In this document: positions 18,288-37,641 of the stretch, one piece after another
How the letters are laid out: each line of letters starts with the position of its first letter
Numbering within the stretch: position 1 is the first letter of the stretch
NCBI GenBank assembly: GCA_021296255.1
Contig: JAGWAU010000025.1
Coordinates: 1-64,000, forward strand
Direction: 5' to 3'
Length of the DNA: 64,000 nucleotides
From: Alphaproteobacteria bacterium
GTDB taxonomy: Bacteria; Pseudomonadota; Alphaproteobacteria; UBA2966
Translations under genes and position numbers: made by a program
The notes under the pieces: model-generated
What the model was told of the DNA's origin: nothing
What the model saw: the letters and a program-made list of their open reading frames with translations, nothing else
Databases searched by the model: none

Positions 18288-19640
18288 TCAACTCCAGGGG
18301 AAGGGACTGTTGGATACGGGAAGCTGCCGTCCCTCGGCATACCGCGACATGCGGAAGGGTTCCAGCAGATCACTGGGGGTGCCGAGCAGTTCACCCGCCA
18401 CCAGGGCCCCGACGCCGATCATCTTGAAACCGTGATTCGAATCGGCGATGACATAGACATTGTCGTGGAAGCGGTCGAAGACAGGAAAGCTGTCGGGCGT
18501 GAAGCAGCCGATGCCCCCCGACGGCTCGTTTTTATACTTCGAGATCTGCCCCGAGAAGCGGGACTGGCAGAAGGCCAGCGCCGAGCACCACATGTGGGTG
18601 AAATCATCGCCGACCACGAAATCCGGGGACTCGGGACCGTAGGGGTCGACGGCGACGTCCCCCGCGTCCGCCTCGACCCTGTAAGGCATGGCCCCGCCTT
18701 GGATGCCGCCGAAATTGAGATCCGGCTTGTAGTAGATGCCCCACATCTCTTCGGTGATCAGGGAGCCGTCGACGTCCGAGACGAGGGGCGCGTCCGTGTC
18801 CACGTGAATCACCGGCGGGGCGCCGCCGTCGTTGGTCTTCTGGAGGCCGGGGTCGACGCCGAGAGTCCCTTCCTGGAGGCTCCAGTAGACCCACATGGGC
18901 ACGTCCTCGTGGACCACGCCGTCGGACCCCCTGACGGGAATGGCAGCCGGCAGCTCGAGCATGTCCCAGATGGTCTTGACCCAGGGCCCGGCCGCGACGA
19001 TGACCTGTTCGGCTTGGATCACGCCGCGGTCGGTCTCGACTGCCGCCGCCGCGCCGCCGTCCACCCGGAAGCCCGTGACCGTGACGCCGGAGAGAATCCG
19101 CGCGCCGACGGCCTCGGCCTTGCCGGCGAGACCGTGGATGGAGGCCGCGTTGTTGGCATAGCCGCCCTTCTTCTCGTGCAGCACCGAGGTGATGCCTTCC
19201 GCCTGCCAGTCGCTGAACAAGTCCTTCATGTACCTGTCGCTGTGCGCGGCGCCCTCGATGAAGGTCGACTCGTATCCGATCGCCGCCTGCTCCTGCGCGA
19301 TCGTGGCGACGTCCTCGAACATGCCTTCCGGGCTGATCTGCATGTAGCCCACAGGGTGATAGCTGAATGCTTCGGGGTCGCTCTCCCAGACGGCGACACT
19401 GTGGGCCATCAGCTCCCGCATGGCCGACTGGGCGTAGTTGTTGCGCACGACGCCGCAGGCGATGCCGCTCGCGCCGGCCGCGATGCCGGTCTTGTCGAGA
19501 ACGAGAATGTCGACCGCCGAGCCGTCGTTGCGCGGCGTCTGGCCGCGCGCGGCGAGGGCCTCGCCCAGATGCCAGGCGGTACTCAGGCCGTGGATGCCGG
19601 CACCGATGATCAGGTAGGTGGCTTGGGTGGGAATTGTCAT
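18288..19640 (-). CDS. FAD-dependent oxidoreductase of the DAO / sarcosine oxidase beta type
   Basis: The 450-residue flavoprotein has the dinucleotide loop YLIIGAGIHGLSTAWHLGEA at its N-terminus. GIAAGASGIACGVVRNNY follows and recalls the GxGxSGRN..x(I/V)RxNY stretch of heterotetrameric sarcosine oxidase beta and N-methylglutamate dehydrogenase A. AEQVIVAAGPW and the C-terminal FAD-binding VIADSNHGFKMIGVGALVAGELL are also typical of the DAO fold. Such enzymes oxidise N-methyl amino acids or other secondary or primary amino acids. No SoxA, SoxG or SoxD-type partner gene is adjacent. It ends a gntR-amidase-oxidoreductase operon (gap to the amidase 6 bases) divergent from the first glutamate-synthase-like cluster. 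A methylated glutamate derivative as substrate is inference. Confidence 0.82.
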   Translation of the reverse strand: MTIPTQATYLIIGAGIHGLSTAWHLGEALAARGQTPRNDGSAVDILVLDKTGIAAGASGIACGVVRNNYAQSAMRELMAHSVAVWESDPEAFSYHPVGYMQISPEGMFEDVATIAQEQAAIGYESTFIEGAAHSDRYMKDLFSDWQAEGITSVLHEKKGGYANNAASIHGLAGKAEAVGARILSGVTVTGFRVDGGAAAAVETDRGVIQAEQVIVAAGPWVKTIWDMLELPAAIPVRGSDGVVHEDVPMWVYWSLQEGTLGVDPGLQKTNDGGAPPVIHVDTDAPLVSDVDGSLITEEMWGIYYKPDLNFGGIQGGAMPYRVEADAGDVAVDPYGPESPDFVVGDDFTHMWCSALAFCQSRFSGQISKYKNEPSGGIGCFTPDSFPVFDRFHDNVYVIADSNHGFKMIGVGALVAGELLGTPSDLLEPFRMSRYAEGRQLPVSNSPFPWS

Positions 19641-19646
19641 GGGGCT

Positions 19647-20507
19647 CTACTCTCCTGCGGCCAGTTTGATCCCCGGAACGTCCGGGTCCGGCACCGAGAA
19701 TTCGCGGTCGTGAGTCAACGCCGGAATCATGCGCCGCACCTCCGCGACCTTGGCGGGGTCGATGTCGGAGACGATCACACCGGGTTCCTCGCCGCCTTCC
19801 GCGAGGATGCAGCCCCAGGGATCGATGATGAGCGAGTGGCCATAGCTCTCGGCCTCGCCGTGGGTTCCGCACTGACAGGCTGCCAGCACATAGGACCCGG
19901 TCTCGATGGCGCGGGCCCGCAGCAGCACGTGCCAGTGGGCTTGACCGGTGGTCTTGGTGAAGGCCGCGGGCACGACAACGAACTCGGCGCCGGCATGGGC
20001 GAGTGCCCGGTAAAGCTGTGCGAACCTGAGATCATAGCAGACGCTGAGCCCGAGCCTGCCCCACGGCGTCTCGGTGACGACCGCGGAGGCACCGGGCTCC
20101 ACGCTCCTGGATTCGCGATAGCTCTGGCCACCCGCCAGGTCGACGTCAGAAAGGTGGATCTTGTCGTAGAAGGCGACGATGCCTCCCCGGTCGTCGATCA
20201 TGTAAGCGCGATTGCGGATCTTGCCGGTGGGAGAGCGGATCGCGAGCGATCCCATCTGGATCCAGACCCCGAGCTCGTCGGCCATCCCCCGGAACAAGGA
20301 AAGACCGGGGTGTTCTTCTTCCGCGCGATCACCGACGTCGAAGGCGCCATCGCGGAAATCGAGGCAGGAGAAGAATTCCGGCAGGCAGATCAGGGAGGCG
20401 CCTTGGCCCGCCGCGTGCCGCACCAGGGACTCCGCCTCTGCGAGGTTGGCGGCCATGTCGGGGCCGGCGCAGTTCTGCACGCAAGCCGCTTTGAAAGACT
20501 CTCTCAT
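19647..20507 (-). CDS. Nitrilase-superfamily carbon-nitrogen hydrolase (NIT/omega-amidase-like)
   Basis: The 286-residue protein has the Glu-Lys-Cys triad of the nitrilase superfamily: Glu in ICLPEFFSCLDF, Lys in FYDKIHLSDVDLAGG, and Cys in GLSVCYDLRFAQLYRAL. The C-terminal ARAIETGSYVLAACQCGTHG is also typical. The combination resembles the Nit1/Nit2 group, which contains omega-amidases and deaminated-glutathione amidases. The ATG at 20507 is chosen because upstream codons are antisense-like and Arg-rich. It lies 28 bases after the GntR regulator and 6 before the FAD oxidoreductase. In this context hydrolysis of a glutaramate-like amide is plausible but not shown. Confidence 0.85.
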   Translation of the reverse strand: MRESFKAACVQNCAGPDMAANLAEAESLVRHAAGQGASLICLPEFFSCLDFRDGAFDVGDRAEEEHPGLSLFRGMADELGVWIQMGSLAIRSPTGKIRNRAYMIDDRGGIVAFYDKIHLSDVDLAGGQSYRESRSVEPGASAVVTETPWGRLGLSVCYDLRFAQLYRALAHAGAEFVVVPAAFTKTTGQAHWHVLLRARAIETGSYVLAACQCGTHGEAESYGHSLIIDPWGCILAEGGEEPGVIVSDIDPAKVAEVRRMIPALTHDREFSVPDPDVPGIKLAAGE

Positions 20508-20535
20508 CGCCTCTTCACCCCGACCGGCACGTCGC

Positions 20536-21255
20536 CTACGCCTTGGTGGCGCGGACAAGCGCGTCGCGAGCCTTCTGCAGATGCCCCTGCATGGCGCCGG
20601 CCGCCGCCTCCGCATCGCGCCGGACGATCGCCTCAAAGATGGCGCGGTGCTGCCGATTGTAGCCGGCGATTTCCGGCGGTGTGAGGGTCAGCCGTTTCAT
20701 GGTCTCCCACTGATTGTGGCGCCGCACTTCGTTCACGCGTTCGTACATCCAGATCATCAGGGAATTCTGCGTACAGTTGGCGAGTCCCCGATGGAACTCC
20801 TCGTCCGCAGCGGAAAATGCCCGATAGTCCTCGTCAATGTTCTCCACCGCCTCCATCGTCAGCTGAAGCTGGTCGAGGTCGTGGCCAGTGGCATTGAGGA
20901 CCGCGAGACGCACCATCTGGGGTTCGAGCGCAAATCGCGTATCCACGAGCTCCAGAGGGCTGGTCGACTGGATGATGGTCTGGGTCTGATCGGCCGCGGA
21001 ATAGGTGACGTAGGTGCCGCTGCCCATGCGGCGTTCGACCAGCCCTGCGTCCTCCAGGCGATGCAGGGCTTTGCGTACCGTCCCCCGGGCTACCCCGAAC
21101 TGTCTGGCAAGCTCTCGTTCCGGAGGAAGCCGGTCATCCTGCATCAGTCCCATGGATACGATCCGGGAGCGCAGCGATGCAACGATGTCGCTCGAGTTCG
21201 GTTGTCTGGCCTCGCGCTCCGAACCCGCCACCCATCCTGGCGTTGCGTCACTCAT
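20536..21255 (-). CDS. GntR-family transcriptional regulator (FadR/FCD subgroup)
   Basis: The 239-residue protein has an N-terminal winged helix with RLPPERELARQFGVARGTVRKALHRLEDAGLVERRMGSGTYV (about residues 42-84). A C-terminal all-helical FCD ligand domain follows, where FHRGLANCTQNSLM and NRQHRAIFEAIVRRD carry the usual metal/ligand His positions. It is the first gene of the minus-strand operon and faces the glutamine-synthetase-like gene across 274 bases. It probably controls both directions in response to a small acid. A candidate operator lies just upstream. Confidence 0.9.
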   Translation of the reverse strand: MSDATPGWVAGSEREARQPNSSDIVASLRSRIVSMGLMQDDRLPPERELARQFGVARGTVRKALHRLEDAGLVERRMGSGTYVTYSAADQTQTIIQSTSPLELVDTRFALEPQMVRLAVLNATGHDLDQLQLTMEAVENIDEDYRAFSAADEEFHRGLANCTQNSLMIWMYERVNEVRRHNQWETMKRLTLTPPEIAGYNRQHRAIFEAIVRRDAEAAAGAMQGHLQKARDALVRATKA

Positions 21256-21267
21256 GATCCCGGCTCA

Positions 21268-21283
21268 TGGATCGATTGGTCCA
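21268..21283. promoter_or_regulatory. Candidate operator of the GntR regulator
   Basis: TGGATCGATTGGTCCA is an imperfect palindrome (12 of 16 positions symmetric) centred about 20 bases upstream of the gntR start. GntR/FCD proteins commonly bind TGGTNNNACCA-like palindromes in such positions. Further into the gap, CAATGTTGAT (21358-21367) and CAATGTTGGT (21376-21385) form a direct repeat 18 bases apart that could be an activator site for the plus-strand operon. Assignment is by position only. Confidence 0.35.
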
Positions 21284-21529
21284 TAATTGGATCTCTAAAG
21301 ATGCGGCCACCACGCATTCAAAGGAATTCTGCACCAGAACGGGTCCAAAATACAAGCCAATGTTGATCTTAGGTACAATGTTGGTTAACCTGAACTATAC
21401 AGATGGATGCACATTCGCTACGGTTTCTGAAATTGGCCTGACCGCAAAATCCGAAAAAGATCAACAGGTCTCACGGGCGGACAGACGCCGGTGAACACGG
21501 ACGGCAAGGGACATTACGGGAGGTAGCAG

Positions 21530-23011
21530 ATGTCCGAGACGGATCTTGAGAAATACGTCAATGCGGAGGGCCGCTCTGACCTGGTCAGGCAGGTTCGCGA
21601 AAAGATCGATGAACTGGATATTCGATATATCTACTACCAGTTCATTTCGGTCACGGGACGCATCGTCGGCAAGGGCATCCCGGCGGATCATTGGGAGACC
21701 ATCGCGGAACGCGGGTTCCAACTGGTCTACGGCGCCACGGCCAACCTCTACACGGACCGACACGCCAATTACATCGGCTACGGCCCGGAGGCGTCGGAGC
21801 TGGTCGGCATTCCCGATCCGGAGACCTTCGCCCAGTTGCCCTGGGACAAGCGCGTCGGCCGCGTCTTCTGCACCTGTTTCCGGAACCGCGAGGAGCTCGA
21901 GAATCCCGGGGGATTCCTGACCTCGGACTGCCGCGGCAACCTGCGCCGCATCCACGACGAATTCAAGGACAAGCACGACGGCCTGCACCTGCGGCACGGC
22001 ACCGAGCCGGAGATGATGTGGCTGAAGAAGGGCGAGGACGGGCTTCCGGACGGCGGCGTTTCGAAGCCCAACTGCTACCACCTGGACCAGTTCGAGATCT
22101 TGCGTCCGGTATTCCTCAAGGTCGTCGAATACGCCCAGGCCATGGGCCTCGACATGATCCAGGGAGACCATGAGGACGCTCCCGGTCAGCTCGAGCTCAA
22201 CTTCAACTTCGACGACGCGCTGCGCACCTGCGACCGGTTGACCACCTACCGTCAGATCTGCGCCGCCGTGGCCCGCGAGTTCGACATCATCGCCTGCTTC
22301 ATGTCGAAGCCGTTCATGGGCGTCTCGGCCTCGGGCTGCCACCACAACATTTCGCTGTGGCGCGGCGGCGCCGAACAGCTCGTCAACACCGCGCACGCCG
22401 AATCCAGGCCCGGGGCCGACGGCGTCTACGCGTACTTGAAGGGCGGCGAGAACACGTTCCTGCCCGACCCCGCCATCGACGAGCGCAAGCCGGGACCGAC
22501 CGGCCTGCAATGCATCGGCGGTGTGATGGAGCACGTCGGCGCCCTGACGGCGCTCGGTTCGTCGACGGTCAATTCCTACCGCCGGCTGTGGGACACCGGG
22601 TTCTGGGCGCCGGTCTTCGCCGATTGGGGCTATCAGAACCGCACCTGCGCCCTGCGCATCTCGGCGCCGGGGCGCTTCGAGTACCGCTCCGTCGACTCGA
22701 TGGTGAACCCCTACTTGATGGCGGCGGGTCTGTTGAAGGCGTTCGATGACGGGATGGCGCGCGGTCTCGATCCGGGCGAGCCCGAGGAACGCAACATCTA
22801 CGAGGCCATGGAAGCCGGAAAGCTGGTCAAGAAACTTCCCATGTCCTTGGGTGAAGCCCTGGAGCGCCTCGACGACGACGAGGTCATCAAATCCGCCTTA
22901 CCCGACGAGATGTACCGGGTGTTCACTCACTACAAAGGCGACGAATGGGCCAAATTCAACGCCACGGTCACCAACTGGGATCTCGAATCCTATTGGGACT
23001 GCCTGCCATAA
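21530..23011 (+). CDS. Glutamine-synthetase-like ligase, first cluster
   Basis: The 493-residue enzyme belongs to the glutamine synthetase superfamily. The metal/glutamate motif reads GDHEDAPGQLELNFNF (canonical NHEVGPGQ.E) and the ATP-binding segment KPFMGVSASGCHHNISLW. The R-E closing segment reads RISAPGRFEYRSVDSMVNPY. The beta-grasp N-terminal domain is compact. It differs from GlnA in lacking the adenylylation Tyr region and is nearer to gamma-glutamylmethylamide/gamma-glutamyl-amine type ligases. It heads an operon with three glutamate-synthase-like subunits and amtB. The start at 21530 follows ACGGGAGGTAGCAG. Whether it uses ammonium or an amine cannot be decided by eye. Confidence 0.82.
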   Translation: MSETDLEKYVNAEGRSDLVRQVREKIDELDIRYIYYQFISVTGRIVGKGIPADHWETIAERGFQLVYGATANLYTDRHANYIGYGPEASELVGIPDPETFAQLPWDKRVGRVFCTCFRNREELENPGGFLTSDCRGNLRRIHDEFKDKHDGLHLRHGTEPEMMWLKKGEDGLPDGGVSKPNCYHLDQFEILRPVFLKVVEYAQAMGLDMIQGDHEDAPGQLELNFNFDDALRTCDRLTTYRQICAAVAREFDIIACFMSKPFMGVSASGCHHNISLWRGGAEQLVNTAHAESRPGADGVYAYLKGGENTFLPDPAIDERKPGPTGLQCIGGVMEHVGALTALGSSTVNSYRRLWDTGFWAPVFADWGYQNRTCALRISAPGRFEYRSVDSMVNPYLMAAGLLKAFDDGMARGLDPGEPEERNIYEAMEAGKLVKKLPMSLGEALERLDDDEVIKSALPDEMYRVFTHYKGDEWAKFNATVTNWDLESYWDCLP

Positions 23012-23050
23012 CGAACAAGCGGTACTGAACGGCCGGAGGAGACAAGATCC

Positions 23051-23986
23051 ATGTGCGGCATAGCTGGTCTCATTCATCGCGGCACGACCGCAGACATCGG
23101 CACCGAAGTGACGAACATGCTGCAGTCGTTGAAGCATCGCGGTCCCGATTCCACGGGCTTTGCGATTTACGGCCAACCGGTCGCCGACGAATACGTCATG
23201 CGCTTCAAGGTCGCCGAACAGGAGGACATGGCGACCGGATTCCGGATCCACGACGAGATCAAGGAGCGGCGGGCGATCGTGGATTCCCGTTTCGATGAAA
23301 AGGGTGCGGTCATGCTGTCGCAGGAGGATGCCACGGAGTACGCCTACCGCTACCGCTTCACGTTCGACGGCGATCTCGAACAGCTGGCCCGTTACATCGA
23401 GGATGTGGAAGGGGCGGAGATCCTCTCCCTTGGCAGTGGCCTGGAATTGATCAAGGATCTCGGCGACGCAACGACCGTGTCCGGCCAATACGGACTAAAC
23501 GGCTTTCAGGGCACGCACGCGATCGGGCATACGCGCATGGCGACGGAGTCGGACGTCGATATCCGCTCGGCCCACCCCTACTGGGCGTATCCGTATAACG
23601 ACATCTCCGTGGTCCATAACGGCCAGATCACCAACTACTGGCTCATGCGCCGCGAGATGGAGCGGCGCGGACACCGCTTCATGTCCAACTGCGATTCCGA
23701 ATTGCTGGCGGTCTACACCGCGGACAAACTGAACAACGGATACACCCTGGAGGAATCGCTCGCCCAATCGATCGAGGAAATCGACGGCGTGTTCACCTAC
23801 GTCGTCGCCACGGCCGACTGTCTGGGGATGGCCAAGGATACCATGGCGGCCAAGCCCATGGTGCTCTATGAGAGCGAGGACACGGTGGCGCTCGCTTCTG
23901 AGGAAGTCGCTATCCGCGCACTCATCCCGGAGGAGATCGAGACCTACGACCCGTATGACGAGGAGGTGCGGGTATGGCAGGCCTAA
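23051..23986 (+). CDS. Class II glutamine amidotransferase subunit (MgsA/GlxB-like)
   Basis: The 311-residue Ntn-type amidotransferase begins MCGIAGLIHRG, so Cys2 becomes the N-terminal nucleophile. It keeps KHRGPDSTGFAIYG, HTRMATESDVDIRSAHPY and VHNGQITNYW for glutamine binding, and CDSELLAVY. It corresponds to the amidotransferase domain of glutamate synthase as a separate subunit, as in MgsA of N-methylglutamate synthase and rhizobial GlxB. It ends in a segment that overlaps the next gene by 13 bases, with AGGAGGTGCGGGT as ribosome binding site inside it. A second paralogue lies at 30797. Confidence 0.88.
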   Translation: MCGIAGLIHRGTTADIGTEVTNMLQSLKHRGPDSTGFAIYGQPVADEYVMRFKVAEQEDMATGFRIHDEIKERRAIVDSRFDEKGAVMLSQEDATEYAYRYRFTFDGDLEQLARYIEDVEGAEILSLGSGLELIKDLGDATTVSGQYGLNGFQGTHAIGHTRMATESDVDIRSAHPYWAYPYNDISVVHNGQITNYWLMRREMERRGHRFMSNCDSELLAVYTADKLNNGYTLEESLAQSIEEIDGVFTYVVATADCLGMAKDTMAAKPMVLYESEDTVALASEEVAIRALIPEEIETYDPYDEEVRVWQA

Positions 23987-24822
23987 GCGATCAGGACAAC
24001 GAGTCCTACGAGATGGGGATGCACACCGAGCAGCTCGCCGGACGCACTCAAGAGATCTTCTTCTCGCCCCGGGAGGGGGAGAACTTCGTCCACCCGGACT
24101 CCTTCGACGTCGACTTCGACAAACGCGCCGAGTTCGACGCCGCCGGGTTGGAGATCGCCGAAATCAACCTCAAAATCCGCGAGCTCATGGAGTCCGGACA
24201 CGGTACCATCGTGGTTAGGAACCCGGGCGCGCGGCACTCCATCGGCGTCGGCATTCTCAACCGTCTCAACCTGATCATCGATGGCAGTCTGGGATACTTC
24301 GGCGTCGGCCTCATCGATGGACCCAACGTGCGTATCAGCGGTCGCGTCGGCTGGTCCTGCGCCGAGAACATGATGGCTGGGACCGTGGTGGTCGAAAAGA
24401 ACGGGGGCTCGACCTTCGGTGCCGCGCTGCGGGGCGGGGACCTCGTCTGCCGCGGCGCCGTGGGCTCGCGTACCGGCATAGACATGAAGGGAGGCACCAT
24501 CATCGTCGGTGGCGACACGGGCGCGTACTCCGGATTCATGATGCAAAGGGGCCGCATGGTGGTTTGCGGCAACGCCGGCAAGAACCTGGGCGACTCCATG
24601 TATGACGGCACCATCTTCGTGGGTGGCGAGATCCGGAGCCTCGGCGTCGATGCGGTTCCGGGCGAAATGACGGACCTGGATCGGGCTTGGCTCGAACGAA
24701 AGCTCGCCATGTACGAACTGCTGCCATCGCGGGGGGTCGGCCACTTCCAGAAGATCGTCGCCGGCAAGCAGCTATGGAACTATGACAATCTCGAACCCAC
24801 CGAAAAGAAGATCGTCCTCTGA
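23974..24822 (+). CDS. GXGXG-domain glutamate synthase-like subunit (MgsB/GlxC-like)
   Basis: The 282-residue protein corresponds to the C-terminal right-handed beta-helix (GXGXG) domain of glutamate synthase. The repeating GXXXGXG pattern is seen in GVGLIDGPNVRISGRVGWS, GGDLVCRGAVGSRTGIDM, GGTIIVGGDTGAYSGFMMQ and GRMVVCGNAGKNLGDSMYDG. In the family this domain is structural and links the ammonia tunnel to the FMN domain. It is a free subunit here, while the second cluster has it fused to the FMN domain. It overlaps the amidotransferase gene and is 13 bases before the FMN subunit. Confidence 0.88.
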   Translation: MAGLSDQDNESYEMGMHTEQLAGRTQEIFFSPREGENFVHPDSFDVDFDKRAEFDAAGLEIAEINLKIRELMESGHGTIVVRNPGARHSIGVGILNRLNLIIDGSLGYFGVGLIDGPNVRISGRVGWSCAENMMAGTVVVEKNGGSTFGAALRGGDLVCRGAVGSRTGIDMKGGTIIVGGDTGAYSGFMMQRGRMVVCGNAGKNLGDSMYDGTIFVGGEIRSLGVDAVPGEMTDLDRAWLERKLAMYELLPSRGVGHFQKIVAGKQLWNYDNLEPTEKKIVL

Positions 24823-24835
24823 GAGGGAACGAACG

Positions 24836-26218
24836 ATGTCAGATTCACAATCCCTCGCCCCCATGCCGAATGGTGGTTCACGGAAACCGTCCCGCAGCAA
24901 AGACGTGCTGGGGCGCAGTCAGATCTACACGCGCGAGGTCATCGACGACATCCATATCAAGGCGGAGCTTGGACGCTACCGGATGCGCGGGTTCTCCTTG
25001 TTTAAGAAAATTCCGCACTGGGACGATCTGACGTTCCTTCCGGGCACGCTGACGCGCTTCGTCATCGAGGGTTACCGCGAGAAGTGCCTGACCGAGACGG
25101 TCATCGGCCCGCGGGCGAAAAAGCCGATCGTGCTCGACATTCCCGTCTACATCACGGGCATGAGCTTCGGCGCGCTTTCCTACGAGGCCAAGACCGCGCT
25201 GGCCCGCGGGGCGACGATGGCGGGTACGGCGACGTGCTCGGGCGAGGGCGGCATGATCCCCGATGAGCGCCGCTATTCGACCAAATGGTTCTACCAGTGC
25301 ATTCAGTCGCGCTATGGCTTCAACCCGCACCACCTGAGGTTGGCGGACGGCTGCGAGTTCTTTATCGGCCAGGGCTGCAAGGTCGGGCTCGGGGGCCACC
25401 TGATGGGCCAGAAGGTCACCGACCAGGTGGCGGAGATGCGCTCGCTCCCCGCGGGTATCGACCAGCGCTCGCCTGCCCGCCATCCCGACTGGCTGGGGCC
25501 CGACGACTTGGCGCTGAAGATCCAGGAGGTCCGGGAAGCCACCGACGGCCAGATTCCCATCCAACTCAAGCTCGGCGCGGCGCGCGTCTACGACGACGTG
25601 CGCATGGCGGTCAAAACCGACCCCGACAGCATCTACATCGACGGTATGGAGGGGAGCACCGGCGCCGGGCCGCACCTGGCGACGGAAGACACCGGTGTGC
25701 CGGGCATGGCCGCGATCCGCCAGGCGCGTCGGGCGATCGACGATCTCGGCAAGCGCGGCGAGATCACCCTGATCTATGCCGGCGGTATCCGTAATGGCGG
25801 CGATATCGCCAAGGCGCTGGCGCTCGGGGCCGACGCCGTAGCCATCGGTCATTCGGCGATGATGGCCCTCAACTGCAACAAGGACATTCCGGAAGCGGAC
25901 TTCGAGTCCGAGATCGGGGTCGAGGCAGGGTACTGCTATCACTGCCATACGGGCCGCTGTCCGGTCGGGGTGGCGACCCAGGACCCCGTCCTGCGTCGGC
26001 GTCTCGATCCCGACGCGGCAGCGGAGCGCGTCTACAACTTTCTTCACACGCTCGCCATCGAGTGCCAGATGATGGCGCGGGCTTGCGGCAAGACCAATGT
26101 CCACAGCCTGGAGCCCGAAGATCTGGCGGCGCTGACCATGGAGGCCTCCGCCATGGCCGGTGTGCCGCTGGCGGGGACCGAGTACACGGTAGGCGTGGAC
26201 GATTATCACCACCTTTAG
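24836..26218 (+). CDS. FMN/Fe-S glutamate synthase-like subunit (MgsC/GlxD-like)
   Basis: The 460-residue protein is the FMN-binding TIM barrel of glutamate synthase as a separate subunit. Seen in order are ITGMSFGALSYEAKTALARG (residues 107-125), the GEGGM loop at 136, IQLKLGAARVYDD near 243, DGMEGSTGAGP near 269 and the flavin phosphate loop AGGIRNGGDIAKALALGADA at 315. The Fe-S site reads C367-x2-C370-x4-C375 in YCYHCHTGRCPVGVATQDP. The start at 24836 follows GAGAGGGAAC. With the two preceding genes it would form a glutamate- or N-methylglutamate-forming synthase; no reductase (GltD) subunit is in this operon. Confidence 0.88.
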   Translation: MSDSQSLAPMPNGGSRKPSRSKDVLGRSQIYTREVIDDIHIKAELGRYRMRGFSLFKKIPHWDDLTFLPGTLTRFVIEGYREKCLTETVIGPRAKKPIVLDIPVYITGMSFGALSYEAKTALARGATMAGTATCSGEGGMIPDERRYSTKWFYQCIQSRYGFNPHHLRLADGCEFFIGQGCKVGLGGHLMGQKVTDQVAEMRSLPAGIDQRSPARHPDWLGPDDLALKIQEVREATDGQIPIQLKLGAARVYDDVRMAVKTDPDSIYIDGMEGSTGAGPHLATEDTGVPGMAAIRQARRAIDDLGKRGEITLIYAGGIRNGGDIAKALALGADAVAIGHSAMMALNCNKDIPEADFESEIGVEAGYCYHCHTGRCPVGVATQDPVLRRRLDPDAAAERVYNFLHTLAIECQMMARACGKTNVHSLEPEDLAALTMEASAMAGVPLAGTEYTVGVDDYHHL

Positions 26219-26233
26219 GGAGGGTACGGATCA

Positions 26234-26644
26234 ATGGCCGGAGGCACCTACAAGGGCTCCGAACTCGGCCATGTCGATCACTTCATCGACGGCGACGGCC
26301 TCGACTCGGAACGCGAAATCGAGATCGGTCAGCACATCGGCTACCGTTATGACGTCAATCTTCTGCCGGATTACGACCGCCTGACCCCCTTTCTCACGAC
26401 CTACATCGAGACGATGGGTTGGGACGACCTCAACTGGCTTGAAGACGTGCACATGGGCTACGAGGAAGGCCGCCCGGCGGTATTCGACCGCAACATCAAC
26501 GGCTGGGTCTCCATCCCGGAAGACACCGAACTGCCCGACAACCAGCAGGATCGCGACATGCTGGCGCGCGAGCTGTTGATCAAGTTTCAGATGTCCAGGC
26601 GTCACCCTTTGGTGGAGTTGAACAAGGCGTACCGGAAATTCTGA
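26234..26644 (+). CDS. Unrecognised acidic protein in the first glutamate-synthase-like operon
   Basis: I do not recognise this 136-residue family. It is soluble, strongly acidic in its first half (DGDGLDSEREIEIGQHIGYRYD) and rich in Asp and Trp in the middle (ETMGWDDLNWLEDVHMGYEEG). It ends with a basic helix, RDMLARELLIKFQMSRRHPL. No signal peptide, membrane helix or cofactor motif is visible. It starts 15 bases after the FMN subunit stop with a good AGGGAGGGTACGG site, so it is certainly translated with the operon. A role as an extra subunit, chaperone or regulator of the synthase is possible. The second cluster has no copy. Confidence 0.8.
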   Translation: MAGGTYKGSELGHVDHFIDGDGLDSEREIEIGQHIGYRYDVNLLPDYDRLTPFLTTYIETMGWDDLNWLEDVHMGYEEGRPAVFDRNINGWVSIPEDTELPDNQQDRDMLARELLIKFQMSRRHPLVELNKAYRKF

Positions 26645-26683
26645 CCGATCTCGCGCCGTCCATCTGGAGGGGCGGAACGGACC

Positions 26684-27301
26684 TTGACGGAGAGATCCTT
26701 GGAGCCATCGCGTTCGAACGGGGATCAGGTCATCCGGCTCGACAGCGCCAACCGGGAGCTCGCCCTGGCCTTTCTGGGTTGGCAGTGTCGGCTGCGCCAG
26801 ATCGCCTTCCGCCAGAACGGCGGTCGACCCAGCGATGGCATGTCTCCGAAGGTTTTTGTGGGCGATGAATGTCAGGTGGCAGGTCGGATCGTCTCAATCC
26901 TCAACAAGGCCGAATCCGACTCCGTGCTCGTGGAATTTCAGCATTTCTATCGCCGCACGCGCGATCCCGCCCAGCGCCGAGCCGATGTCACTCGGTTTTT
27001 GTCGGAAACCTATTTCCAAAGGCCGCAGACCTTCACGGATCGACTGACCACGGTGTTCCCACCCGGGTCCCGGGTGGCCGAATTGCTCGAGTCGGCCGAA
27101 TCCTGCCGACTCGTGTTTGAGCACTTCAATCAGCGTTACGACCTGACGTGCGAAGCGATACCGCTTCGGGAAGACGATCCCCTGTATCAGTCGACGTTCT
27201 GGCACAACGCGCTGTTCAATCCGGATTTGTCGAAGGATTGCAGGATCCTGGCGCTTGTTCCCAATTGGTCGCGTTGCGCCGCGGATCCGGCACCCGCATG
27301 A
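26684..27301 (+). CDS. Unrecognised 205-residue protein between the synthase genes and amtB
   Basis: The product is soluble, of mixed alpha/beta appearance, and carries no motif I can name. Segments such as DECQVAGRIVSILNKAESDS and VEFQHFYRRTRDPAQRRADV suggest a small beta-barrel followed by helices. It has four Cys scattered late in the chain without a spacing pattern. The likely start is the TTG at 26684, preceded at some distance by GGAGGGG; this makes the exact N-terminus uncertain. It lies in the same direction as the operon, 39 bases after the previous gene and 193 before amtB. No copy is seen in the second cluster. Confidence 0.65.
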   Translation: MTERSLEPSRSNGDQVIRLDSANRELALAFLGWQCRLRQIAFRQNGGRPSDGMSPKVFVGDECQVAGRIVSILNKAESDSVLVEFQHFYRRTRDPAQRRADVTRFLSETYFQRPQTFTDRLTTVFPPGSRVAELLESAESCRLVFEHFNQRYDLTCEAIPLREDDPLYQSTFWHNALFNPDLSKDCRILALVPNWSRCAADPAPA

Positions 27302-27494
27302 GAGTCGGGTTCAGAGGTTTGCTGGAACAAATACTTGTTTCGGAAAGCAGAATCGGTGAACATACCGGTTAATGCTGATGCGAGACTTGGCGATCGTGGC
27401 AGAACTCTCAATCTGATCTTGAACGCCGAACCGGCCGTGTGTACGGGGTGCACGGTGGTCGGTGATTCTATTTGCACCCCGCGGAGAAACCTTC

Positions 27495-28865
27495 ATGGAT
27501 ACAGATGTTGCTGCACTAACAACAGTATTCACTGAATTTTATTACTGGATAACTGTTGCACTGATGTTCCTGATCCACGTTGGCTTCTGCATGTACGAAG
27601 TGGGGGCAAGCAGGCGCAGGAACCACATGCACACCCTGATGAAGAATTCCATGCTGATCCCGTTGGTCACGGTGACATGGTTCTTCTTCGGCTGGTGGAT
27701 TTACTGGGCATTCGCTGGCGGGCCGGGCATCACGGGTCCGCTCGGCCATCCCGATCCAGCCGTTGCGGCGGCGTACACACCGTGGGGCGAAAGCATGGGC
27801 CCCCGCCTCGACGACCGTATCAGCGGCGTCTTCTGGGCAGCGTTCCTGCTGTTCGCCTGGACGGCCGCGTCCATCGTCTCGGGTGCCGTGATCGAACGGA
27901 TTCGCCACTTCGCGTTCTGGATATTCGCCGTCCTGATCGGATCTGTCACCTGGTCGATCGACGCCGCCTGGGGCTGGCACTTCAACGGCTGGATGGTCGA
28001 GCTCCTCGGGTACCATGACGCGTACGCGTCCGGTGTGATTCACGGAATCGCCGGCGGTACGGCCTTGGGCGTTCTGGTCGTCCTTGGGCCGCGCCTCGGC
28101 AAGTTCGCAGCGGACGGCACGCCGCGCGACATCGTGCCTCACAACACCTGGCTGGTGTGTATCGGGTTGTTCCTGATCTATACGGGCTTCTGGGGGTTCT
28201 ACGTGGCCTGCAACGTGCCGCTGGCGACGACCGCTTACATCGACGGCCAGCTCACCGGCGCGACCCAGACCGCGACCACGATTTACCTCACGCCGACCAC
28301 GCTCGGCGCCATCACGGTAAACTTCCTGATGTCGTTGGCCGGCGGGATGTTGGTCGGTTACATGGTGTCGAAGGGCGACGCCTTCTGGACCTACTCGGGT
28401 GGCCTTGCCGGCATCATCACGGCGTCCGCCGGCAACGACCTCTATCATCCGATCCAGGCGATGATCATCGCCGGCATCGGCACCTTCCTCATGTACAAGA
28501 TCCACTATTGGGTCGAACGGAGGTTCAAGGTCGACGACGCGGTCGGCGCCGTGGCGGTCCACGGCTACGCCGGCGTCATCGGTCTGGTCCTTGCGGGTTT
28601 CGTGCTTTGGGGACACCCCTCGTCACCCTATGAGGGCTTCGCCGCCATCAATCCACTCGGCCAATTGGTCGGCGCGGTCATCATGTTCGGGGTGCTTGGT
28701 TTCCTCCCCGCCTGGATCATCGCCAAGATCCTTCACTCGCAGGGCCTGCTTCGCATTCCGCGTGAGATCGAGGTGCTCGGTCTCGACTTCCTCAGCAACA
28801 AGGAAGCCGAGGCGGCGCGCGCGGACGTGGTGGCTGGGGTTCGCTCCGAGTCCGCGGGCGCCTGA
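27495..28865 (+). CDS. amt: Ammonium transporter (Amt family)
   Basis: This 456-residue membrane protein has about eleven hydrophobic helices in Amt order. The Asp and first pore His are spaced as in AmtB (D-x7-H in HDAYASGVIHGIAGG), and the second pore His lies in AVHGYAGVIG. The family helix SIVSGAVIERIRHFAFW is also present. N-terminal helix FTEFYYWITVALMFLIHVGFCMYEVGASRRRN is characteristic of a branch found beside glutamate-synthase-like genes. It moves ammonium, or methylammonium, into the cell. The ATG at 27495 gives the usual N-terminus. No separate PII gene is adjacent. It probably supplies the synthase and ligase encoded upstream. Confidence 0.9.
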   Translation: MDTDVAALTTVFTEFYYWITVALMFLIHVGFCMYEVGASRRRNHMHTLMKNSMLIPLVTVTWFFFGWWIYWAFAGGPGITGPLGHPDPAVAAAYTPWGESMGPRLDDRISGVFWAAFLLFAWTAASIVSGAVIERIRHFAFWIFAVLIGSVTWSIDAAWGWHFNGWMVELLGYHDAYASGVIHGIAGGTALGVLVVLGPRLGKFAADGTPRDIVPHNTWLVCIGLFLIYTGFWGFYVACNVPLATTAYIDGQLTGATQTATTIYLTPTTLGAITVNFLMSLAGGMLVGYMVSKGDAFWTYSGGLAGIITASAGNDLYHPIQAMIIAGIGTFLMYKIHYWVERRFKVDDAVGAVAVHGYAGVIGLVLAGFVLWGHPSSPYEGFAAINPLGQLVGAVIMFGVLGFLPAWIIAKILHSQGLLRIPREIEVLGLDFLSNKEAEAARADVVAGVRSESAGA

Positions 28866-30748: not shown

Positions 30749-30796
30749 TTAGCTGTGCCCACGCGGGCTCGAAAACGACTGCACGCGAGGTGTGCG

Positions 30797-31705
30797 ATGT
30801 GCGGAATCGCTGGCGTCCTCTTCAAGAATCCTGGACTCAACGCGAAGCTCGGCGAGACCCTGATCGAAATGCTCGACGGGTGTCAGCACCGCGGGCCCGA
30901 TTCGACGGGATTCGCGCTGTACGGAGGCGACTCGGACACCTCGGAGTTCGTCTTGCGGTTCCATGTCGGCACGGGGGACGAAGGTTCCGAGAACGTGGAT
31001 CGCGTGGTACGGGCGCTGAAGGAGTTCGAAGCCCAAATCATCGACGGCGAACACGTCGGCAGCACCTACCGGGTAACGGTGTGCTACGAAGGCGACGTCC
31101 AGAAATTCGCCTACGCCATGGAGCATGCGGCGAAGCTGTTCTCCATCGGTAGCACCCTCGACATCGTCAAGGACATCGGCGGCGCCCACGACGTCGACGA
31201 GGTTTACGACGTCCATTCCGTGGACGGCAGCCACGGTCTCGGACACGTGCGTCTCGCCACGGAGTCCGACGTCAAGCCGGAAGCGGCGCACCCGTTCTGG
31301 GCCACCGGCTTCTCCGATGTGGCGATCGTCCACAACGGTCAGATCACCAACTACTGGAAGATGCGCCGGCTGTTGGAACAGCGCGACTACGAGTTCCATA
31401 CGGACAACGATTCCGAGCTCATCGCGGTCTACCTTGCCGACAAGCTCAAGCACGGAGATACTCTGAAGCAGGCCCTTGAGACCTCGATCGACGACCTCGA
31501 CGGCACGTTCTCGTTTCTCGTGTCGACCAAGGACGAGATGGGCTACGCCAAAGACCGTCTCGCCGCCAAACCGATGGTGCTCTACGAAAACCATGATCTC
31601 ATCGCCATCGCCTCGGAAGAGGTCTCTCTCAACCGCCTGTTTCCGGGTCAGGCCCTTGATACGACCGAACCGCCGCCTGGGACCTGCGCGACATGGTCAC
31701 GGTAG
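30797..31705 (+). CDS. Class II glutamine amidotransferase subunit, second cluster (MgsA/GlxB-like)
   Basis: This 302-residue paralogue of the protein at 23051 begins MCGIAGVLFKNPGLN. It keeps QHRGPDSTGFALYG, HVRLATESDVKPEAAHPF, VHNGQITNYWKMRR and TDNDSELIAVY, all needed for Ntn glutaminase activity with Cys2 as nucleophile. The start at 30797 is fixed by the need for an N-terminal Cys after Met removal. It overlaps the next gene by 13 bases, exactly as in the first cluster, suggesting both clusters descend from one operon. Confidence 0.88.
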   Translation: MCGIAGVLFKNPGLNAKLGETLIEMLDGCQHRGPDSTGFALYGGDSDTSEFVLRFHVGTGDEGSENVDRVVRALKEFEAQIIDGEHVGSTYRVTVCYEGDVQKFAYAMEHAAKLFSIGSTLDIVKDIGGAHDVDEVYDVHSVDGSHGLGHVRLATESDVKPEAAHPFWATGFSDVAIVHNGQITNYWKMRRLLEQRDYEFHTDNDSELIAVYLADKLKHGDTLKQALETSIDDLDGTFSFLVSTKDEMGYAKDRLAAKPMVLYENHDLIAIASEEVSLNRLFPGQALDTTEPPPGTCATWSR

Positions 31706-33678
31706 ACCTGAGCGAGCTGCCGGTCCGCGAAGCCAATGACCTGATCCGGAAGGCGGGCGCGGACGGCGAGGACGTCGAAGTCCTCAACCCGGATGCGCGG
31801 CATCACATCGGGGTCGGTCTGGCCCATCCCATCACGGTGCGCATTCGAGGATCGGCCGGCTATTTCTGCGCCGGTCTGACCGACGGACCGCGCTTCGAGG
31901 TCGAGAGCAACGTCGGCTGGGGCCTCGCCGACAACATGTACCAGGGTTCTGTGGTCGTCGGCGGCAATGCCAGCGCCATTCCCGCCGTCGCCATCCGCGG
32001 CGCCGAGGTCGTGGTCAAAGGGAACATGGGTTCGCGCGCCGGCCAGGTCATGAAGGAGGGCACGCTGCTCTGCGGCAAGAACGCAAACTTCATGGCCGGC
32101 TACATGATGTACGGCGGGCGTATCGTAATTCTCGGCGATTCCGGCGAGCGCGTGGGCGAAGACATGACCGGCGGCGAGATCTTCGTCGGCGGCAAGATCC
32201 AGTCGCTGGGTGCCGCGGCCATGCAGACCGACATGGAGAGCGCCGAGGACAACGAACTGCGCGCGCTTCTCGACAGGTACGAAATCCCTTTCGCGGGGAC
32301 CTTCAGCAAAATCGTCAACGAAGGCGGCAATCTGCGCTATGCCAACCCGGAGCCGCGGCGCCGGGCCATCCCGTTCTTCACCTTCTCGGGTAAGTCGAGC
32401 TACTGGAACGAGAAGGTCCAGGAGGACATCTACGTCAAATCCAAGATCGGTCGTTACCGCATCCGGGGTTATGGCGGTGCGCGGGCGTTGCCGCATCTCA
32501 ACGACATAGCGTTCAAGAAAGACCTGAGCACCGCCGGCAGCGAGACAGACGCCGTCAGCAAGGTCAACCTGCACACCGAAGTCGGCGGGCGCCACGGGGC
32601 CAAACCGCTGAGACTTTCCATGCCGGTGATGATCTCGCCGATGAGCTTTGGGGCGCTGAGCAAGTCGACCAAGCTTGCCATGGCCAAGGCCGCGGCCATG
32701 GCCGGAATCTCGGAAAATACCGGCGAAGGCGGGATGATGGACGAGCAGCGCGAAGCCGCCGATCAGCTTATCTTCCAGATGCTGTCGGGGCGCTTGGGTT
32801 GGAACGTCCACGACATGCAGCGGGCCGATGGTCTTGAGATCTATATCAGCCAAGGCGCCAAGCCCGGGTTCGGCGGCCAGCTTATGGCGGCCAAGGTCAC
32901 CGAGGAGATCGCGCGGATCCGTGGCATTCCCCACGGCATCGATCTACGCTCGCCGTCACGCCACCCGGACATTCTCGGTGCCGACGATCTGGTCATCAAG
33001 ATCGAGGAGATGCGCGAAGCCACGGGCTATCGCATCCCGATCGCCGTCAAGCTCGGTGCCGGACGCGTGCGCGACGACATCAAGATTGCCGTGAAGGACG
33101 GCTTCGATTTCATCGAGCTCGACGGCATGCAAGGCTCCACCGGAGCGGCCGGCAATGAGGTGCTCGATTATTGCGGCATTCCGACCATCGCCGCCATCCA
33201 GGAGGCCGAGGAGGCGCTCGCGGACATCGGCCGCCGTCAAGACGTCGACATCGTGCTCATGGGCGGCATCAAGGACGGAATCGATACCGTGAAGGCCTTG
33301 GCGTTGGGGGCCGACGCCATCGGCATGGGAACCTCGGCGATCATCGCCGCGGGCTGTATCGCCTGTATGCAGTGCCACGTCGGTTCCTGCGTCGTCGGGA
33401 TCGCCACGCAGGACCCCGAACACGAGAAGCGCTACAACGTGGATATCGAGGCACGGAATGCGGCACGGTTCCTTGAGAGCGTCCGCTGGCAGATCGCGGC
33501 GCTGACTCATGCGCTCGGTTACGACGATATCCGCCAGCTCAATCGTGAGGACCTGGTGGCGCTGACGTCCGAGGCGGCGGCCATAACCAAGCTTCCCTAC
33601 GCGCCGGAGTATCGTTCCGGCGAACACCAGATTCAGGAGACCGTGGGCATTCAACGCTCCGGGTCACAGCTCCAGTGA
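31693..33678 (+). CDS. Fused GXGXG and FMN glutamate synthase-like protein (MgsB-MgsC fusion)
   Basis: In 661 residues this protein joins the two subunits that are separate in the first cluster. Residues 1 to about 215 form the GXGXG beta-helix (GCGLT-like turns in GYFCAGLTDGPRFEVESNVG and GRIVILGDSGERVGEDMTGG). The rest is the FMN barrel: MISPMSFGALSKSTKLAMAK, GEGGMM, AVKLGAGRVRDD, LDGMQGSTGAAG and MGGIKDGIDTVKALALGADA. The Fe-S site has four Cys at about 555, 558, 561 and 566 (CIACMQCHVGSC), one more than in the first cluster. Note the domain order, GXGXG before FMN, which is the reverse of canonical GltB. Confidence 0.88.
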   Translation: MVTVDLSELPVREANDLIRKAGADGEDVEVLNPDARHHIGVGLAHPITVRIRGSAGYFCAGLTDGPRFEVESNVGWGLADNMYQGSVVVGGNASAIPAVAIRGAEVVVKGNMGSRAGQVMKEGTLLCGKNANFMAGYMMYGGRIVILGDSGERVGEDMTGGEIFVGGKIQSLGAAAMQTDMESAEDNELRALLDRYEIPFAGTFSKIVNEGGNLRYANPEPRRRAIPFFTFSGKSSYWNEKVQEDIYVKSKIGRYRIRGYGGARALPHLNDIAFKKDLSTAGSETDAVSKVNLHTEVGGRHGAKPLRLSMPVMISPMSFGALSKSTKLAMAKAAAMAGISENTGEGGMMDEQREAADQLIFQMLSGRLGWNVHDMQRADGLEIYISQGAKPGFGGQLMAAKVTEEIARIRGIPHGIDLRSPSRHPDILGADDLVIKIEEMREATGYRIPIAVKLGAGRVRDDIKIAVKDGFDFIELDGMQGSTGAAGNEVLDYCGIPTIAAIQEAEEALADIGRRQDVDIVLMGGIKDGIDTVKALALGADAIGMGTSAIIAAGCIACMQCHVGSCVVGIATQDPEHEKRYNVDIEARNAARFLESVRWQIAALTHALGYDDIRQLNREDLVALTSEAAAITKLPYAPEYRSGEHQIQETVGIQRSGSQLQ

Positions 33679-36209: not shown

Positions 36210-36321
36210 GCAGTCGTCGCATTCGAGTCCGATGTAGACCCACCTCTATTTTCCTGCCGCGGCGAAGTTCCTAAACTGCGGCACATCACGAGACAGCGAA
36301 AACATCAGGGAGGGAGTTGAT

Positions 36322-37641
36322 ATGGCTGTCGATCTGGCCAAGGTCGCCAAAGACCGGAAGATCAAATATTTCCTCGTCAGTTTTGTCGATCTGTTTGGCG
36401 GCTTGAGGGCGAAGCTGGTGCCCGCCCGTGCGATCGGGGACATGCAGAAGGAAGGTGCCGGCTTCGCCGGCTTCGCGGCTTGGCTCGACATGACGCCCGC
36501 CGATCCGGACATGTTCGGCGTGCCCGATCCCGACAGCCTCATTCAGCTTCCCTGGAAGAAGGATGTCGCGTGGGTCGCGGCCGACCTCTGGATGAATCGC
36601 AAGGAGGTCGAGGCCTCGCCCCGCATCATCTTGAAGCGCCAGATCGAGAAGGCCGCCAAGAATGGCTACCGCCTCAAAACCGGCGTCGAATGCGAATACT
36701 TCCTGGTCATGCCTGATGGTACGGCGATCTCCGATCCCTTCGATACTCAGGAGAAACCTTGTTACGACCAGCAGGCACTGATGCGGCGCTACGACGTTAT
36801 CAGCGAGATCTGCGATGCGATGAACGAACTGGGCTGGGGGCCCTACCAGAACGACCACGAGGACGCGAATGGCCAGTTCGAGATGAACTGGGACTATTCG
36901 GACTGTCTGACCACGGCGGACCGGCACGCGTTCTTCAAGTTCATGGTCAAATCCGTCGCCGAGAAGCATGGCCTGCGGGCGACGTTCATGCCGAAGCCCT
37001 TTACCGGGCTGACGGGCAATGGCTGCCACTGCCACGCATCGCTTTGGGACAAGGCAGGCCGCAAGAACCTTTTCCTCGACAACAAGGACGAAATGGGGCT
37101 GTCGAAGCTCGCCTACAACTTCCTCGGCGGAGTTCTCAATTCGGCGGGTCCCTTGTGCGCCTTTTTCAATCCGACGGTGAACTCTTACAAGCGCATCAAC
37201 GCACCCACCACGTTGTCGGGTGCCAGCTGGTCGCCGAACTCGGTGACTTACGGCGGGAACAACCGGACCCATATGGTCCGAATTCCGGACGCCGGCCGCT
37301 TCGAATTCCGCCTCATGGATGGGTCGGCCAACCCGTATCTGCTCCAGGCCGGCCTGCTGGCCACGGGTCTCGACGGCATTCAGAACAAGCGGGATCCGGG
37401 CAAGCGGCTCGACGTCAACATGTACGAGTACAGGCGAGCCTCGGAGCTTCGCCGCCTGCGTATACGGAAGCTGCCGCTGAACCTCCTCGACGCCCTGCGT
37501 CTGCTCGACAAGAGCAAGATCATCCGCGCCGGGATCGGCGACGAGTCGGTCGACAGCTACGTCAAGCTGCGGATGAACGACTGGCTGAGCTACGCCAGCC
37601 ACCTTACCGACTGGGAGCGCGAGCACACGCTCGACTGCTAG
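36322..37641 (+). CDS. glnT: Type III glutamine synthetase GlnT / gamma-glutamylmethylamide synthetase-like
   Basis: The 439-residue enzyme matches the GlnT/GmaS branch very closely. The N-terminus is IKYFLVSFVDLFGGLRAKLV and GFAGFAAWLDMTPADPDMFG follows. TGVECEYFLVMPDG, QEKPCYDQQALMRRYDVISE and NDHEDANGQFEMNWDYSD carry the metal-binding Glu residues. MPKPFTGLTGNGCHCHASLW is the ATP/glutamate site, and RIPDAGRFEFRLMDGSANPY closes the protein. Members join glutamate with methylamine, or with ammonium, at the expense of ATP. It starts 112 bases after the GltD fusion, behind CAGGGAGGGAG. The palindromic hairpin downstream ends the operon. The choice between ammonium and methylamine needs assay. 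Confidence 0.88.
   Translation: MAVDLAKVAKDRKIKYFLVSFVDLFGGLRAKLVPARAIGDMQKEGAGFAGFAAWLDMTPADPDMFGVPDPDSLIQLPWKKDVAWVAADLWMNRKEVEASPRIILKRQIEKAAKNGYRLKTGVECEYFLVMPDGTAISDPFDTQEKPCYDQQALMRRYDVISEICDAMNELGWGPYQNDHEDANGQFEMNWDYSDCLTTADRHAFFKFMVKSVAEKHGLRATFMPKPFTGLTGNGCHCHASLWDKAGRKNLFLDNKDEMGLSKLAYNFLGGVLNSAGPLCAFFNPTVNSYKRINAPTTLSGASWSPNSVTYGGNNRTHMVRIPDAGRFEFRLMDGSANPYLLQAGLLATGLDGIQNKRDPGKRLDVNMYEYRRASELRRLRIRKLPLNLLDALRLLDKSKIIRAGIGDESVDSYVKLRMNDWLSYASHLTDWEREHTLDC

Follow-up and report, generated by a model that had tools for sequence, protein, structure and literature searches.

A conserved protein family linked to a variant N-methylglutamate synthase-type module that may replace dimethylamine monooxygenase in marine bacteria

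Two genes between a synthase subunit and an ammonium transporter

The window analysed here is a stretch of 64,000 nucleotides from an alphaproteobacterium (contig JAGWAU010000025.1, assembly GCA_021296255.1). Between the FMN subunit of a glutamate-synthase-like enzyme and an ammonium transporter it carries two genes, ORF136 and ORF205 (Table 1). ORF136 begins 15 nt past the stop codon of the FMN subunit gene and has GGGAGGG upstream; ORF205 is preceded by GGAGGGG, a good ribosome-binding site. An earlier note on this DNA, made from the letters alone, had described both genes at these positions, with this spacing and a strong ribosome-binding site for ORF136, and its description is correct.

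Table 1. Features of the module in the window
Feature	Position	Strand	Remarks
DAO-family FAD oxidoreductase (PF01266)	18291..19640	-	proposed oxidase of an N-methylated glutamate
Carbon-nitrogen hydrolase, omega-amidase-like (Nit)	19650..20636	-	
GntR/FCD regulator	20539..21255	-	in 57/80 named loci (best 80 of at least 543)
GS*, glutamine-synthetase-like ligase	21530..23011	+	GmaS catalytic residues D213, E222, W359
GAT*, class II glutamine amidotransferase-like subunit	23051..23986	+	
GXG*, GXGXG-domain subunit	23974..24822	+	
FMN*, FMN/Fe-S glutamate-synthase-like subunit	24782..26218	+	own clade
ORF136	26234-26644	+	ATG start, 136 aa; new conserved family, proposed obligate FMN* partner subunit
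ORF205	26684-27301	+	TTG start, 205 aa; predicted FMN-type split-barrel protein, module accessory
Ammonium transporter (amt)	27495..28865	+	open frame from GTG 27462; ATG 27495 start from homologues

Both are real, conserved, protein-coding genes, present in one copy each in the window's own genome. In six further genomes, which belong to the same class but to other genera, ORF136 is 70-81% identical; amino-acid identity is 76-84% in 80 named loci, which are the best 80 of at least 543 matching stretches and hence biased to near relatives. Across 40 ungapped pairs, codon positions 1, 2 and 3 differ 919, 567 and 2388 times, and this pattern together with the conservation marks ORF136 as protein-coding. 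Relatives of ORF205 are more varied, at 32-50% identity. No Pfam or NCBIfam model reached its cut-off for either protein, whether for the window proteins or for all members of the later alignments; sequence and profile searches of the PDB gave no credible match, and PLSDB searched with ORF136 and ORF205 gave none. The impression that neither belongs to a nameable family therefore survives searches of Pfam, NCBIfam and PDB sequences.

Structure prediction, which the earlier note had recommended, was informative for one protein of the two. The AlphaFold2 model of ORF205 (pLDDT 93.5) returned FMN-type split barrels or their relatives among the matches listed (best Foldseek probability 1.00, E 3e-4), and superposition on 3db0_B gave Z 10.9 and rmsd 2.5 over 118 aligned residues. 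The prediction that ORF205 is an FMN-type split barrel carries high confidence; the protein is probably of a type that binds a flavin, F420 or haem, and its sequence family is absent from the libraries searched. The suggestion that it might be an ammonia-channel partner or allosteric regulator finds no echo in this model, since the predicted fold is neither an ammonia channel nor a known allosteric domain. For ORF136 the model reaches moderate confidence (pLDDT 72) and shows no recognisable fold, and its comparison with solved structures by Foldseek and VIA-align gave no credible match.

The wider module

The functional unit is larger than the two genes and spans about 18291-28865 of the window. 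In the named loci, which have flanks of up to 10 kb and are in many cases cut by contig ends, the gene order is GntR, DAO, GS*, GAT*, GXG*, FMN*, ORF136, Nit, ORF205 and often amt; in the window, the genes for DAO, Nit and GntR occupy 18291-21255 on the opposite strand, just before the rest. Not every named locus has DAO and Nit, many loci being cut: among the best 80 of at least 543, DAO is present at 55% identity or more in 20/80, and Nit is the next gene after ORF136 in 29/80. In all six other loci that hold both, the DAO gene is immediately upstream of the ligase gene. Upstream of GntR, 24 neighbourhood loci (for example L085:1817 and L071:3435) have a gene for a class I glutamine amidotransferase. 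One of these, L071, is a contig titled Oceanobacillus sp. (Bacillota) that bears a proteobacterial-type module together with genes for trimethylamine monooxygenase (Tmm), TMAO transport and TMAO demethylase (Tdm); its title or assembly is probably wrong.

The window holds a second GOGAT-like cluster (30755-37638), situated behind an XRE-cupin regulator and composed of an amidotransferase, a fused GXGXG-FMN protein, an 844-aa GltD-like fusion protein and a GmaS-type ligase. It contains no copy of ORF136 or ORF205, as the earlier note had said.

The ligase of the module, GS*, matches glutamine synthetases and is 32-33% identical to GmaS-type ligases. Against TIGR03105 (type III glutamate-ammonia ligase) it scores 296.4 bits, below the cut-off of 469.6, and the ligase of the second cluster scores 658.3 bits. 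In RhGmaS, the residues Asp177, Glu186 and Trp300 are reported as catalytic for methylamine or as a flap residue, and the enzyme accepts dimethylamine (PMC7948447; papers given by PMC number are represented here by excerpts of their text). Alignment, with the published numbering mapped by motif, places D213, E222 and W359 of GS* at these three positions, which in RhGmaS substitute for the ammonium site of glutamine synthetase (PMC7948447), and GS* does not have the flap glutamate of ammonium-using synthetases. Because the GmaS residues are kept and RhGmaS takes dimethylamine, GS* is probably an alkylamine ligase.

ORF136 is inherited with a distinct FMN subunit

The distribution of the two genes was followed in a class sample of 241 evenly drawn genomes of at least 90% completeness, in which the best FMN-subunit candidates of each genome were scored. 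The subunit falls into two clades: identity is 79-100% within the FMN* clade and 50-55% between it and the ordinary clade, and no value between 55 and 79% occurs among the 241 genomes. FMN* is present in 23/241 genomes, and 23 others have only the far, ordinary Mgs-like clade. ORF136 is in 23/23 FMN* genomes and in 0/218 others, including the 23 with ordinary Mgs only; ORF205 is in 20/23 (missing in 3/23) and likewise in 0/218 others. Both genes thus distinguish this operon from ordinary mgs/glx operons, as had been proposed, with 0/218 genomes outside the FMN* set carrying them. As to whether both always accompany this type of operon, a check that the earlier note had asked for, ORF136 does and ORF205 does not: besides its three absences, ORF205 is often on the opposite strand or unlinked (on another contig, or 163 kb off, in several genomes). 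No close relative has an otherwise identical operon from which ORF136 is missing. At closer range, among 61 relatives, ORF136, ORF205 and the FMN subunit (at least 81% identity) share the same 7 genomes, and in two genomes of the same genus the whole operon is absent.

Linkage and rate of change agree with this pattern. ORF136 lies downstream of FMN* in 80/80 named loci (the best 80 of at least 543), and the median distance between the two genes is 16 nt. One count puts both on the same strand in 79/80, since in L073 the contig ends within FMN* and a far paralogue scored best; the truncated FMN* there is on the same strand as well. Mean identity to the window across the named loci is 85.7% for FMN*, 78.7% for ORF136, 48.0% for Nit, 45.8% for GntR and 41.5% for ORF205. 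Given the strict co-occurrence, the 80/80 linkage and a conservation near that of FMN*, we take ORF136 to be a core partner of FMN* and assign ORF205 an accessory role, and of the roles that had been offered for ORF136, "new subunit" is the best guess from these sequence comparisons.

A methylamine context

Recurrent neighbours of the module are trimethylamine monooxygenase, TMAO demethylase and a TMAO-binding protein, all near matches to solved structures; Tdm is named in its structure entry, and we take some of the other matched entries to be Tmm and TmoX. DMA (dimethylamine) is the product of Tdm. Within the named loci (best 80 of at least 543), Tdm at 50% identity or more is found in 35/80, and in the window's own genome Tmm and Tdm are adjacent on another contig (C96). 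The association also appears in the class sample: Tmm is in 11/23 module genomes and 3/218 others (Fisher 1e-10, kinship ignored), and Tdm in 15/23 and 5/218 (Fisher 2e-14, kinship ignored). The module is not tied to TMAO, since 8/23 module genomes are without Tdm.

Exclusion of dimethylamine monooxygenase

The module contains no homologue of the HODM subunit DmmC, nor of DmmA, DmmB or DmmD. A true Dmm cluster was recognised by DmmC identity together with DmmA/B/D neighbours. The check took in the 24 PF11927 hits of the named module genomes, the hits of G044, G036 and G239, and class hits of at least 220 bits (G235 and G261 being read from L113 and L114); the other class hits score under 215 bits and all lie in genomes without the module. 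True DmmC hits in the class sample scored 221-242 bits against PF11927. PF11927 alone was tried as a Dmm marker and rejected: it hits 24/50 named module genomes, and these hits are distant paralogues, 21-32% identical to DmmC with some unmatched, in settings without DmmA or DmmB. Such proteins, distant from DmmC and lacking DmmA/DmmB, make PF11927 a poor sole marker of dimethylamine use. HODM alpha-like PF11927 proteins are common without a Dmm cluster (L117-L141, L143-L151, L168-L171), at no more than 32% identity to DmmC.

By this test the module and Dmm keep apart. True Dmm clusters occur in 7 class genomes, none with the module, and so in 0/23 module genomes; PF11927 is absent from the window's own genome. 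The 14 Tmm-positive class genomes have exactly one system each (11 the module, 3 Dmm), and the 20 Tdm-positive ones divide into 15 with the module, 3 with Dmm and 2 with neither (G036, where there is a partial 43% match, and G239). A Dmm cluster was found in 0/50 named module genomes, 35 of which have Tdm in the locus. In the family of Ruegeria arenilitoris (296 genomes), ORF136 was found in 26 genomes and DmmC in 41, with no overlap. The 81 Tdm-positive genomes of that family (a count that includes G492, G504 and G531 as Tdm by assumption) comprise 25 with the module only, 40 with Dmm only, 0 with both and 16 with neither (Fisher 2.7e-10 for the exclusion, not corrected for kinship).

On a FastTree tree of 92 Tdm proteins the module and Dmm labels are strongly clustered, and some joins lie on long branches and are unsure. 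The tree requires 6 changes between module and Dmm, at least 5 of them forced by starred branches, so the exchange has happened repeatedly; G321, G560 and G595 have Dmm with a Tdm type otherwise seen beside the module. The module thus excludes and replaces true Dmm across genomes, which is a new result. This replacement and the wider module go beyond what the earlier note had considered.

The numbering suggested that the module might correspond to SPO1554-1561 of Ruegeria pomeroyi; this was rejected, as SPO1557 is fhs-1 according to an excerpt of the source (PMC4744692). The TMA cluster of R. pomeroyi, which is itself a Dmm strain, is given as SPO1548-1588 (PMC13390433).

A variant arrangement is found in G499 and G514, which are Tdm-positive and have neither the module nor Dmm. 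They hold GS* without the FMN*/ORF136 synthase (L159:2-2097, L160:1479-7652), followed by a cytochrome P450, with a GMC oxidoreductase, an alpha/beta hydrolase and a class I amidotransferase on the opposite strand. The variant adjoins Tmm and Tdm, and ordinary Mgs subunits are nearby. It is a possible third dimethylamine route: if GS* makes gamma-glutamyl-dimethylamide, the P450 could demethylate it to the usual gamma-glutamylmethylamide. The variant would place GS* at the DMA step, and would tie ORF136 to FMN* and not to GS*. The class I amidotransferase beside the P450 recalls the gene recurring upstream of GntR.

A probable counterpart in SAR11

The small genome G198 (1.2 Mb, GC 33%) has the order TmoX, Tdm, DAO, GS*, GAT*, GXG*, FMN*, ORF136, amt, with 124 nt from ORF136 to the likely amt start. 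In the excerpts available for SAR11 strain HTCC1062, SAR11_1302 is a transporter, 1303 a GcvT-like protein and 1304 a monomeric sarcosine oxidase (PMC3160333), SAR11_1305 is glnT (PMC5069961), and SAR11_1309, a hypothetical protein, and 1310, amt, are encoded on one strand with 125 nt between them (PMC2704228). These published locus data fit the gene order of the module. Because both the locus order and the ORF136-amt spacing agree with G198, SAR11_1309 would be the homologue of ORF136, a reading drawn from locus numbers and names together with G198 rather than from SAR11 sequence. HTCC1062 can use TMAO as sole nitrogen source without dmmDABC, for which an excerpt of the report has the authors suggesting an unknown isoenzyme (PMC8918994). 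Lidbury et al. (2017) report that no SAR11 representative has dmmDABC and that other marine bacteria lack it too, and suggest that this amounts to a metabolic bottleneck (PMC5520151).

Proposed pathway and alternatives

From the protein families, the co-inheritance, the neighbourhood, the exclusion of Dmm, the GmaS-type residues and the fold predicted for ORF205, we infer the substrate, the intermediates and a physical contact between ORF136 and FMN*. We consider it on balance probable that the module is a glutamate-bound DMA route that replaces the haem monooxygenase DmmDABC, with ORF136 as a subunit of FMN*. GS* would join DMA to glutamate, giving gamma-glutamyl-dimethylamide; the GAT*/GXG*/FMN* complex would free and channel the DMA and join it to 2-oxoglutarate, giving N,N-dimethylglutamate; and the DAO flavoprotein (Mgd where DAO is absent) would remove methyl groups. 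Nit may clear amide by-products and Amt recover ammonium. ORF136 would serve the FMN* synthase as an obligate small subunit, with a structural role or one in shaping the site for a secondary amine, and ORF205 would be a flavin-type split-barrel accessory, e.g. a flavin handler or reductase. At the threshold used, 9/15 Tdm-positive module genomes in the class sample have no ordinary Mgs, an argument for a module that completes the pathway unaided; of all 23 module genomes 11 do have it, and there the module could end at monomethylamine.

The GmaS residues of GS* and the paralogy of the synthase with Mgs, an enzyme known to act on monomethylamine, would also suit a second pathway for monomethylamine (or another primary amine), in which Dmm is absent for other reasons and ORF136 is still a synthase subunit; the eight module genomes without Tdm point the same way. 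We think this unlikely: nearly half of the module genomes already have ordinary Mgs for that task, and the lack of any Dmm overlap in the family of 296 genomes and the six switches on the Tdm tree would go unexplained. It is harder still to credit that the module serves nitrogen scavenging tied to ammonium uptake and stands near Tmm and Tdm only because the cassettes are inherited together by descent. An ammonium transporter does adjoin the module in the window and elsewhere, and the labels are clustered on the Tdm tree, but GS* is without the Glu-flap glutamate of ammonium-using synthetases, the Tmm/Tdm association holds in an evenly drawn sample, and starred branches force most of the switches.

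The role of the two small proteins is a separate matter. Rather than subunits, they could be factors that mature or regulate the FMN* enzyme, by loading flavin or Fe-S or by allosteric control; we find this alternative doubtful, though less so than the two above. It suits ORF205, which is fast evolving and often unlinked and whose predicted fold is of flavin type, and ORF136 has no enzyme-family match; yet ORF136 evolves nearly as slowly as catalytic FMN* and stands behind its gene in every named locus, as would be expected of a core subunit sooner than of a factor.

Returning to the dimethylamine route, the combined claim reaches further and is put forward tentatively, as possible and short of probable: that the module is the missing monooxygenase-free DMA pathway of SAR11 and of many marine bacteria without dmmDABC, with gamma-glutamyl-dimethylamide and N,N-dimethylglutamate as intermediates; that ORF136, whose HTCC1062 counterpart is most likely SAR11_1309, is a dedicated subunit of the dimethylglutamate synthase and ORF205 its flavin partner; and that the oceanic "dimethylamine bottleneck" is partly an artefact of dmm-only searches.

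Implications

Dimethylamine is a marine nitrogen source and an aerosol precursor. The gene set with ORF136 and ORF205 may stand in for the known DMA enzyme in trimethylamine degraders, and may be the DMA route of many marine bacteria. Literature searches, with subscription papers outside their scope and judged by titles, abstract openings and excerpts, listed no paper that assigns the module to dimethylamine, and one aimed at gamma-glutamyl-dimethylamide or dimethylglutamate returned none. The module is a widespread, testable candidate for the missing marine dimethylamine use, and it brings two families that are unnamed in the curated libraries searched. If the proposal is true, dmm-only surveys underestimate dimethylamine use, many genomes carry misnamed synthase genes, labelled glutamate synthase or N-methylglutamate synthase (ORF136 being found in at least 543 stretches), and the open puzzle of how HTCC1062 grows on TMAO without dmmDABC would be answered.

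Comparison with known systems

The predicted fold of ORF205 resembles FMN-binding split-barrel (PNPOx-like) proteins, and ORF205 differs from them in its low identity (3-13%), in matching no PNPOx-type sequence family and in its long N-terminal helix. With DmmDABC the module shares a proposed place in the pathway, the consumption of DMA after Tdm; unlike DmmDABC, it would be independent of O2 at the first step. The closest likeness is to MgsABC (glxBCD) and GmaS: a three-part synthase of amidotransferase, GXGXG and FMN/Fe-S parts with a GmaS-like ligase adjoining, and, as in MgsABC, the GATase, GXGXG and FMN/Fe-S subunits are separate proteins encoded in one operon. In contrast to MgsABC, FMN* lies outside the ordinary MgsC clade (at most 55% identity, with no intermediates in 241 genomes), and the module always comes with ORF136 and mostly with ORF205. 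The module is a variant of the known gamma-glutamylmethylamide/N-methylglutamate pathway to which two new protein families have been added.
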